In this document: positions 19,518 to 21,669 of the stretch, one piece after another
How the letters are laid out: each line of letters starts with the position of its first letter
How positions within the stretch are numbered: position 1 is the first letter of the stretch
Assembly: GCA_963169225.1 (NCBI GenBank)
Contig: CAUJDH010000013.1
Coordinates: 1 to 32,993 of the forward strand
Direction of reading: 5' to 3'
Source of the DNA: Actinomycetota bacterium
Lineage (GTDB): Bacteria > Actinomycetota > Actinomycetes > S36-B12 > UBA10799
DNA length: 32,993 bases
Translations under genes and position numbers: made by a program
The notes under the pieces: model-generated
What the model saw: the letters and a program-made list of their open reading frames with translations, nothing else
Told to the model about the DNA's origin: nothing
Database searches by the model: none

Positions 19518-20684
19518 CTATTTGGCTAGATCGCCGCTGGTGATTTGCCAGGACATGAGGGTGGATTTGAGTTGGCTCATAGGCATGCCAATCAGTACCT
19601 TCTCCAGTGCTTGTGCATTGTTGAACGAGGCGGTACGCAATTTGACGCGGTAGGGGGTTGGTCCGCCAGTTGAGGTAATGAACCAGCCGTTGATTCCGGT
19701 CGGGTTCTCGGTCCAGCCGTAAAAGCTGCCATGCGGCAGTCGAATAGACCGAGGTAGCTTGACCGAGATTGGCTCCTCGGTACTCATCGAATTCAGGCGG
19801 TCGGCGCAGGCTGTGATGCAGTTAGCACTCGTGTCGAGTTCGCCGACTAGAGTCTGGAATCTGGCTTGGTTGTCGCCACTCGTGCCGACTGTTCGATTCA
19901 GGATCCTATTGTCGATGAGTTCTGGATAGGAGCAGTAGCTGTCATCGAATCGAAGATCAAGTTCGAGACCAGAGGCGCGAGCGGTCGGTCCTGATACTCC
20001 GAATTCCTTTACGTCTTCAAGTGAGAGTTGGCCATCTGAAGCGCCTACGAAATCGCTACTGAAAAACTCGTTCAAGCTTTGTTGGACAGTAGGCAGCTGC
20101 TCCAAGGCACCGATAAGTTGATCAAGCCATCCGTCGGGAACGTCTAGTCGCATTCCCCCTGGTTGCACCAACATGGGGTGGAGTCGGCCGCCCGAATATG
20201 ACTCGTGCAGTTCGACCAACTGTTCGCGTAGTCCAGCAGTCTGAGTCTGTACCTCGACACTGCCCAATTCACCGGCGGTTGACCCAAGCCAACGAAGATG
20301 ATGGATCGCACGATTGAGCTCTGCCATGAGCGTCCTCAACCAAGTGGCTCGTTCCGGTGCCGTGATTCCGAGCGCTTGCTCGATCGTGAGTGCCAAACCA
20401 AGCTCGGACCCAAACGAGCTGTTCCAATCATGCCGATCACCGAGCATCATCATCTGCCGATAGTCGCGAGATTCAAACAACTTCTCGGCCCCGCGATGCG
20501 CCAGATGAACGCGAACGACAGCACTGGTGATCGTGGCATCAGGTTGGGGCTGACCTGAATCGGTAGTCAATATGAACGTGATCGGTCCGTGACCTGCAGG
20601 GTGCTCAAGGCCGAACGTTGGTTGCCAAATAAACGAACCAGTTAGTGGATCTTCATCAAGAACTACGCCCATTGCGTCATTCAT
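19518..20684 (-). CDS. NuoD-like protein (complex I 49-kDa subunit homologue), stand-alone
   Basis: From the ATG at 20684 the protein has 388 residues; longer starts up to 20735 are possible but look non-conserved. It aligns with respiratory complex I subunit NuoD by several blocks in the right order. FGLEHPAGHGPITFIL is near residue 25 (the HPxxHG motif). HRGAEKLFESRDYRQ begins near residue 63, DRHDWNSSFGSELGLALTIEQALGI follows to residue 107 (read in two parts), and the C-terminus is GGPTPYRVKLRTASFNNAQAL. There are no other Nuo genes nearby. The usual C-terminal end of NuoD (GDIDR) reads SGDLAK. A NuoD paralogue at this position between DUF3180 and the DUF2520 gene is, to my knowledge, recurrent in actinobacteria. 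The catalytic or structural role is unknown. It is transcribed against the flanking operons. Confidence 0.72.
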   Translation of the reverse strand: MNDAMGVVLDEDPLTGSFIWQPTFGLEHPAGHGPITFILTTDSGQPQPDATITSAVVRVHLAHRGAEKLFESRDYRQMMMLGDRHDWNSSFGSELGLALTIEQALGITAPERATWLRTLMAELNRAIHHLRWLGSTAGELGSVEVQTQTAGLREQLVELHESYSGGRLHPMLVQPGGMRLDVPDGWLDQLIGALEQLPTVQQSLNEFFSSDFVGASDGQLSLEDVKEFGVSGPTARASGLELDLRFDDSYCSYPELIDNRILNRTVGTSGDNQARFQTLVGELDTSANCITACADRLNSMSTEEPISVKLPRSIRLPHGSFYGWTENPTGINGWFITSTGGPTPYRVKLRTASFNNAQALEKVLIGMPMSQLKSTLMSWQITSGDLAK

Positions 20685-20766
20685 CTCACCACTCGCAGTC
20701 ACAGATGTCAGTCTACTAGGGCACTTCCCGCTCAACGGGTGACGTTAAAGCTCTAGGCTGGTCTGT

Positions 20767-21669
20767 GTGTCAACGGAATCTTCACCAGAGCCGCCACCAC
20801 GGTTAAACGTTGGCGTGGTGGGCACTGGCCGTGCCGGTTCAGTATTGGGTGCCGCCCTCAAAAGAGCCGGTCACGAGGTAGTGGCCGCTTATGGTGTGAG
20901 TGACACCAGTCGACTGCGGGCTGAGGCGTTGTTGCCAGGCGTTCCGCTTGTTCCGGTTGAAGACGTGTTGGCCAAGGCCGACTTGGTGTTGGTGACTATC
21001 CCGGATGACTCGCTTGAAGCGTTCATTTCGGGAATCGTGACTCAAGGGCTGGTCACTCCCGGACAACTACTAGTCCACGCCAGTGGTCGATTCGGTATCG
21101 GGGTTTTGGCTGAAGCTACGGCTGTCGGTGCTTTGCCGTTGGCACTTCATCCAGCTATGACTTTGACTGGTACGAGCTTGGATTTGGACAGATTGTCAGG
21201 TGCGCCATTCGGTGTTACAGCGCCGGAGGCCCTACGTCCGATCGCAGAGGCTCTGGTTGTTGAGATGGGCGGGGAACCCGTGTGGGTTCCAGAGCAGAGC
21301 CGCGCGCTGTATCACGCAGCGCTAGCCAATGGTGCGAACCACTTGGTGACCTTGGTGTCTCAGTCGGTCGACCTACTGGCTTCTGCCGGTGTGGAAGAGC
21401 CGGGCAGGTTGTTGTCGCCACTGCTGTATGCCGCGCTCGACAATGCACTGCGTCAAGGCGACCAAGCTTTGACTGGTCCCGTGGTTCGTGGTGACGCATC
21501 GTCGGTTGCCGCCCATATCGAGGTAATCGGTGAGATCTCTCCAGAGGCTCGCAATGCCTATATCGCGATGGCTCGGTTGACCGCCGACCGTGCGTTGGAT
21601 GCCGCTCTGTTGAATCCCGTGAATGCTGCTCAACTCTTGGAGGTCTTGGCTGATGCCCAAGATCATTGA
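20767..21669 (+). CDS. Rossmann-like / DUF2520 domain protein
   Basis: This 300-residue protein starts at a GTG. The N-terminal Rossmann domain has VGVVGTGRAGSVLGAALKRAG (given as GTGRAGSVLGAAL, the nucleotide-binding loop). A central LHPAMTLTGT follows, then a helical DUF2520 domain with YHAALANGANHLVTLVSQ. The overall plan resembles pyrroline-5-carboxylate and ketopantoate reductases. Its place directly before panC, overlapping it by 17 bases, suggests a role in pantoate supply, but a PanE-family gene exists elsewhere in the window. It is divergent from the NuoD-like gene, with 82 bases between the chosen starts. Confidence 0.85.
   Translation: MSTESSPEPPPRLNVGVVGTGRAGSVLGAALKRAGHEVVAAYGVSDTSRLRAEALLPGVPLVPVEDVLAKADLVLVTIPDDSLEAFISGIVTQGLVTPGQLLVHASGRFGIGVLAEATAVGALPLALHPAMTLTGTSLDLDRLSGAPFGVTAPEALRPIAEALVVEMGGEPVWVPEQSRALYHAALANGANHLVTLVSQSVDLLASAGVEEPGRLLSPLLYAALDNALRQGDQALTGPVVRGDASSVAAHIEVIGEISPEARNAYIAMARLTADRALDAALLNPVNAAQLLEVLADAQDH

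Follow-up and report, generated by a model that had tools for sequence, protein, structure and literature searches.

The closest described relative of the locus examined here is the nuo2 system of Streptomyces, which comprises nuoA2, nuoB2, and nuoH2 to nuoN2 (SCO4599 to SCO4608 in S. coelicolor, in the sources as consulted) and whose nuoD2 gene has already been published as lying apart from the operon (sections of PMC3765725 and PMC8388888). According to the consulted sections of PMC9239103, the function of nuo2 is unclear, and the system is said to lack NuoCDEFG and NuoL. A similar enzyme in Desulfitobacterium hafniense has nuoABCDHIJKLMN content and no NADH module; its authors leave the electron donor unresolved and favor PFOR/ferredoxin or a hydrogenase (sections of PMC11238625). 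Further away stands the NuoD/NDUFS2/Nqo4 subunit of the 14-subunit complex I, in which the tyrosine ligating the quinone head group (Y144 in Yarrowia) is said to be strictly conserved (PMC8119997 and PMC8042128, in part) and H95 of NDUFS2 is a catalytic loop residue (PMC8042128, in part).

The gene analyzed here, nuoD2, occupies positions 19518 to 20684 (minus strand) of the window, that is, of the whole 32,993-nucleotide stretch of DNA under study, and encodes a protein of 388 residues. It belongs to the same family as Streptomyces nuo2 and shares the same D split; the NuoD2 proteins of six sampled genomes from one family (f22) are 90 to 98% identical to those of Streptomyces. Yet the membrane arm, complete in Streptomyces, is lost in the genome carrying our window. 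The same holds against D. hafniense, whose enzyme resembles the full form of nuo2 but has D inside the operon and a membrane arm present, whereas in our genome D is relocated (consulted sections of PMC11238625). NuoC2 is not listed in the consulted sections of the Streptomyces nuo2 papers, yet it is present in the two f22 loci that we read. Nor do those sections mention the tryptophan, Kor, or a reduced module. Within the sections of the open PMC literature consulted, no description was found of NuoC2, the tryptophan substitution reported below, the reduced module, or its spread; tryptophan in place of the quinone tyrosine throughout nuo2 and the reduced B2-C2-D2-I2 module are apparently undescribed.

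NuoD2 and its genomic surroundings

The nuoD2 reading frame runs from an ATG at 20684 to the stop at 19518, with a possible alternative TTG start at 20735. Its product matches Pfam Complex1_49kDa (PF00346) with an E value of 1.8e-39 and 135.9 bits against a cutoff of 24, and matches the NCBIfam NuoD equivalog models, though far below the cutoffs of all of them (230.9 bits for a cutoff of 360, 206.8 for 459, and 200.7 for 522). An AlphaFold model built from a 20-row alignment reached a pLDDT of 80.6 and a pTM of 0.84, and the matches listed by Foldseek against the PDB are complex I 49-kDa/NuoD chains, with a TM score of about 0.79. An earlier note had described a NuoD-like protein with four ordered motifs and a C-terminal SGDLAK, and these motifs, together with the PF00346 match, are indeed there.

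All of the motifs lie on the minus strand. HPAGHG (residues 28 to 33; 20586 to 20603) falls in the β1-β2 loop, and its second histidine aligns with the catalytic H95 of Yarrowia NDUFS2 (PMC8042128, in part). In HRGAEKL (residues 63 to 69; 20478 to 20498), R64 corresponds to Yarrowia R121, which adjoins cluster N2 (PMC8042128, in part). DRHDW (residues 83 to 87; 20424 to 20438) places R84 at the position of R141 and W87 in the column of the quinone-ligating Tyr144 (PMC8119997 and PMC8042128, in part); the spacing R64-R84-W87 equals that of R121-R141-Y144. The fourth motif reads SFNNAQAL. By alignment, E139 within GSTAGELGS (residues 134 to 142; 20259 to 20285) preserves the acidic position of the quinone-site loop, and GGRLHP (residues 165 to 170; 20175 to 20192) carries H169, which presumably faces N2. 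The terminal SGDLAK (residues 383 to 388; 19521 to 19538) aligns as a variant form of the VVGD[IV]DK sequence in which full-type NuoD2 proteins end. NuoD2 thus has in common with canonical NuoD/NDUFS2/Nqo4 the fold, the HRGxE motif, and the arginine and histidine on the N2 side, but differs in having tryptophan for tyrosine and in lacking dedicated E, F, G, or H partners. The large subunit of [NiFe]-hydrogenases (HycE type), in which two CxxC pairs serve as nickel ligands, is a relative by distant common fold, and NuoD2 weakly matches formate hydrogenlyase subunit 5; unlike the hydrogenase subunit, the 388-residue sequence contains neither the N-terminal nor the C-terminal CxxC pair.

On either side of nuoD2 lie genes for a DUF3180 protein and a Rossmann/DUF2520 protein, both on the opposite strand, so the gene is transcribed against both neighbors, as had been noted before. 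The arrangement recurs widely. At least one of FolB, FolK, DUF3180, DUF2520, and PanC was found in the flank of 78 of the 140 NuoD2 loci read, whereas the other 62 show none of these genes, and in many of them the flank spans only about 1.5 kb; in 77 of the 78 informative loci, every such gene runs opposite to NuoD2. The suggestion that a separate NuoD-like gene occupies this place in many actinobacteria is therefore well founded, since NuoD2 is a conserved paralogue in many Actinomycetes. One locus with the full folate/pantothenate neighborhood (L208) sits on a contig titled as a Bifidobacterium breve MAG, which is probably mis-binned. The DUF2520/Rossmann-like protein of the window (20767 to 21669, plus strand), encoded directly upstream of panC, weakly matches KARI_N and ApbA and is a candidate ketopantoate reductase.

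Partners and origin of nuoD2

That no other nuo gene is near holds for the window, but not for the genome (1.9 Mb, 109 contigs, 96% complete), which has two nuo clusters elsewhere. A canonical nuo1 operon on one contig (C41) includes a 447-residue true NuoD; subunits A to J are confirmed by Pfam, with K and L as the following open reading frames. A search with PF01058 revealed two NuoB proteins, the second on another contig (C107) in an operon encoding NuoB2 (186 residues), NuoC2 (about 180 residues), and a NuoI-like two-cluster ferredoxin (NuoI2, about 114 residues), with no NuoD. Since the genome holds a second NuoB along with NuoC2 and NuoI2, nuoD2 is not an orphan, and the idea of an orphan without partners was dropped once the second NuoB was found. 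A second full complex was likewise discarded for this genome: the second cluster consists of B2, C2, and I2 only, and a PF00146 search of the genome gives a single NuoH. Divergent from this operon is a 2-oxoacid:ferredoxin oxidoreductase pair that we call korAB; the KorA-type subunit beside NuoB2 scores 670.5 bits as an OAFO_sf alpha subunit, above the cutoff, and the KorB-type subunit scores 239 to 253 bits on PorB/KorB models, below their cutoffs.

We surveyed 197 genomes of the class and found NuoD2 (E value of at most 1e-57) in 79, plus one fragment at a contig edge (G020). NuoC2 was separated from NuoC1 by profile score, the low scores of two genomes (G004 and G029) being settled by gene context. 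Both proteins occur in 78 genomes and neither in 114; NuoD2 is present with no NuoC2 found in a single genome (G179), and NuoC2 stands alone in four, namely, the genome with the fragment and three MAGs of 80 to 94% completeness in which NuoD2 was not found (G004, G039, and G089). The association gives a Fisher P value of about 1e-48, uncorrected for phylogeny. It also holds within family f20, where NuoC2 occurs in all 7 genomes with NuoD2 and in none of the 10 without it (17/17 agree). One genome rated 100% complete (G119) carries NuoD2 together with a nuo2 cluster, whereas the nuo1 NuoB, NuoC, NuoD, and NuoH are all absent.

Evolutionary distances point the same way. NuoD2 distances correlate with those of NuoB2, NuoC2, and NuoI2 (r = 0.85, 0.86, and 0.84, uncorrected for phylogeny, like all NuoD2 correlations given here) despite the lack of linkage, and the partial correlations given PPS or KorA are 0.74 to 0.86. 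The values are 0.32 for NuoN1 (partial, 0.22 and -0.01) and 0.34 for KorB (partial, 0.37 given PPS and -0.10 given KorA). Among genomes with a reduced nuo2 alone, the correlations with B2, C2, and I2 are 0.68 to 0.81 (partial, 0.43 to 0.79), and those with NuoN1 and KorB are 0.40 to 0.44. By co-occurrence and covariation, NuoD2 is thus tied to NuoB2, NuoC2, and NuoI2, in line with the earlier suggestion of another redox complex.

We read 51 second clusters, in which the NuoB2 assignments also rest on neighboring C2 or I2: 29 are reduced (B2-C2-I2) and 22 are full, some of the latter being rearranged or truncated where the contig ends. A D gene is absent from all 51. That of G021, at the same place beside korAB, encodes A2, B2, C2, H2, I2, J2, K2 (identified by BLAST), L2, M2, and N2; of the 11 subunits of such an enzyme, D alone is missing. 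In another genome (L129; G088:C1:5196000-5215500), nuo2 is rearranged, with NuoB2 and NuoC2 about 5 kb apart and only B2, C2, and H2 in the stretch.

Outside the class, D is found where it is missing here. Thirteen of 16 loci, taken mostly from the top of the phylum-search list rather than at random, carry a second nuo operon of the order A-B-C-D-H-I-J-K-L-M-N with D beside C2, and 8 of these 13 have nuo1 genes on the same stretch; of the remaining three, L258 and L262 show different-looking operons and L266 is a short contig. Identity of the 13 D proteins is 48 to 59% to the NuoD2 of G021 and 32 to 37% to NuoD1. In a careful tree of 42 rows, the NuoD2 proteins of the class form one clade (support, 100/100) inside a nuo2-D clade (100/99), with NuoD1 apart (100/99); a quick tree of 83 rows likewise nests NuoD2 among the nuo2-D proteins, away from true NuoD. 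Because D lies inside the nuo2 operon in other classes and NuoD2 is nested there, nuoD2 moved out of nuo2, and because NuoD2 is one clade, this departure took place no later than in the common ancestor of the class's nuo2. While D remained between C and H elsewhere in the phylum, in the Actinomycetes it moved into the folate/pantothenate region, with the rest of nuo2 staying near nuo1 or korAB. The earlier note had asked for a phylogeny against true NuoD and a search for a full nuo operon, and it held that a gene grouping with true NuoD in an organism that had lost the main copy would be an ordinary relocated subunit. Neither is the case here: NuoD2 lies outside NuoD1 in strongly supported separate clades, and a normal nuo operon complete with a NuoD is retained in the genome.

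Reduction of nuo2 and the quinone site

In at least 26 genomes, including our own, nuo2 has shrunk to B2-C2-D2-I2, with neither NuoH nor the membrane helix of NuoI nor the quinone loop of NuoB, and with all 12 cluster cysteines kept; full-type relatives include L040, L112, and L117. None of the 26 reduced genomes has a nuo2-type second NuoH, extra matches in four of them (G011, G018, G033, and G192) reaching at most 137 bits, while 14 of 17 full-type genomes have one at 327 to 347 bits. The three full-type genomes without a match have contig ends (G014 and G065) or a remnant (G027). Read by eye, the N-terminal membrane-associated segment of NuoI2 is present in 18/18 full forms and 0/29 reduced forms. 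The NuoB2 loop RHDFIRLG...PRQADL is replaced in reduced forms, with traces in two genomes (G101 and G111). The eight NuoI2 cysteines are present in 47 of 47 sequences, and all 29 reduced forms have the four NuoB2 cysteines, G157 being included on the strength of the alignment. Excluding two genomes of undetermined cluster type (G005 and G179) and counting G027 with the full type, the 68 NuoD2 columns that are invariant in full-type proteins are conserved in 92% or more of the 26 reduced forms. The dN/dS ratio of nuoD2 is 0.16 to 0.41 in reduced pairs (n = 6) and 0.03 to 0.15 in full pairs (n = 4).

G027, a complete chromosome, represents a halfway state in which nuo2 is in the middle of its reduction. 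It has A2, B2, C2, and I2 with the helix, no J2 to N2, and an intact NuoD2 motif set, and its NuoH2 bears an internal in-frame deletion (L116, 9047 to 11358), with an HtpX gene adjoining. Quick trees place the reduced D2 proteins in one clade (98), as they do the reduced B2, C2, and I2 together (99). Yet the careful tree recovers the reduced D2 clade in only 24% of bootstraps, long branches being a risk, and families f19 and f31 each hold both full and reduced nuo2, which implies several reductions or horizontal transfer. For these reasons, a single reduction event was no longer assumed.

The quinone site, whose residues the earlier note had singled out for comparison, was examined by sequence alignment. 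The column of the quinone tyrosine holds tryptophan in 51/51 NuoD2 proteins and in 14/16 D proteins of the other-class loci, the two with tyrosine (G198 and G353) being those of the different-looking operons, and holds tyrosine in 16/16 NuoD1 proteins. Tryptophan is also found in 79 of 80 NuoD2 loci of named organisms, the remaining one seemingly read in the wrong frame. At the positions occupied in NuoD2 by HRG and His169, true NuoD proteins from these Actinomycetes carry HTG (threonine at R64) and asparagine. E139 is kept in 32/32 full-type proteins and about 5/26 reduced ones, T31 in about 4/26 reduced ones, and the second loop histidine is lost in 4 of 27 rows of the motif comparison, in which G005 and G179 were listed as reduced. 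Since the NuoD2 of our genome itself keeps H28, H32, and E139, its quinone site is not plainly destroyed.

Proposed function and alternative readings

Taken together, it is likely that the lone gene encodes the relocated D subunit of a second complex-I-like enzyme without NuoEFG, reduced in this genome to a putative soluble redox module that probably does a new redox job. Homology, relocation, co-occurrence, covariation, loss of the membrane parts, and retention of the cluster ligands are what the sequences themselves show. We infer that NuoB2, NuoC2, NuoD2, and NuoI2 would assemble into this module, which would take low-potential electrons, most likely from ferredoxin reduced by KorAB, into the two [4Fe-4S] clusters of NuoI2. 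From there, electrons would pass to cluster N2 in NuoB2 and on to a putative acceptor at the NuoB2/NuoD2 cleft, the former quinone site. The position of korAB beside NuoB2 makes ferredoxin the leading donor, although naming ferredoxin and KorAB is our guess. Chances seem about even that the module is a soluble, membrane-free and quinone-free iron-sulfur enzyme derived from the Q-module, found in many actinobacterial families and acting on a new acceptor or substrate in the former quinone cleft, while its 11-subunit parent works with tryptophan. The earlier idea of a function other than quinone reduction is accordingly plausible for the reduced form and less likely for full nuo2, which keeps its membrane arm.

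KorAB as an obligate partner was weakened by several observations, as each occurs without the other and KorB distances hardly follow those of NuoD2. korA lies within the locus in 16 of the 29 reduced and 13 of the 22 full second clusters. Seven reduced-type genomes (G061, G175, G108, G118, G157, G183, and G128) keep B2-C2-I2 without KorAB, so KorAB cannot be the sole donor. Conversely, among the 118 class genomes without full-length NuoD2, korA surroundings were read in 20 and in G020; 19 of the 20 korA loci lack B2, C2, and I2, the exception being G039. With korAB at the same place without NuoD2, and the module without KorAB, their adjacency may be history only. In G183, a 72-bit KorB-like reading frame lies between PPS and NuoB2 beside the reduced module (L132) and is probably a remnant of korAB.

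Other explanations are less convincing. The module might dock on the nuo1 membrane arm, so that ferredoxin electrons still reach menaquinone. The retention of H28, H32, and E139, a nuo1 membrane arm encoded in the same genome, and the position of the module just 3' of nuo1 in many genomes all agree with this, and the authors of PMC9239103 (sections consulted) raise the possibility of cooperation between nuo2 products and nuo1 proteins. However, the reduced forms have lost the membrane-arm contacts, both the NuoI2 helix and the NuoB2 loop, and D2 distances hardly follow those of NuoN1, which makes docking unlikely. That NuoD2 is an ordinary extra NuoD able to replace its counterpart in the 14-subunit enzyme is scarcely credible: Pfam family and fold are identical, but the protein forms a separate clade with tryptophan for tyrosine, co-occurs with NuoC2 rather than nuo1, and persists in G119, which lacks NuoD1, NuoB1, and NuoC1.

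The conserved folate/pantothenate location could instead speak for a nonredox scaffold or moonlighting protein linked to that synthesis, a role close to the scaffold that the earlier note had entertained. We regard this as very improbable given the strict tie to iron-sulfur partners whose genes lie elsewhere, whose cluster cysteines are all retained, and whose distances covary with those of NuoD2, and given the opposite strand of the folate/pantothenate genes in all but one informative locus. That the module is a remnant of nuo2 in decay and heading for loss would fit the long NuoD2 branches, the higher dN/dS of reduced pairs, the diverged quinone-site columns, and the internally deleted NuoH2 of G027. 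Yet dN/dS stays well under 1 with intact frames, the 12 cysteines and the 68 columns are retained, and many families retain B2, C2, D2, and I2 jointly although the genes sit at two unlinked loci; decay, too, is highly doubtful.

On our preferred reading, that of a relocated D subunit, what looked like an orphan would be the subunit that a second complex I was missing, and the function of Streptomyces nuo2 becomes testable. The natural series from D in nuo2, through D moved out and the mid-reduction state of G027, to the bare B-C-D-I module separates electron transfer from proton pumping, so that the role of the complex I quinone module in the absence of a membrane arm can be addressed. The tryptophan of nuo2, in turn, questions the view of the quinone tyrosine as indispensable.

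Two further features of the nuo2 surroundings were observed. An HtpX protease gene adjoins nuo2, full or reduced, in many genomes (L074 to L078, L139, L040, L112, and L117). In one locus (L126, in G019), a NuoF-like gene with 37% identity to NuoF1 (251 bits) adjoins nuo2 and is perhaps an added input module.
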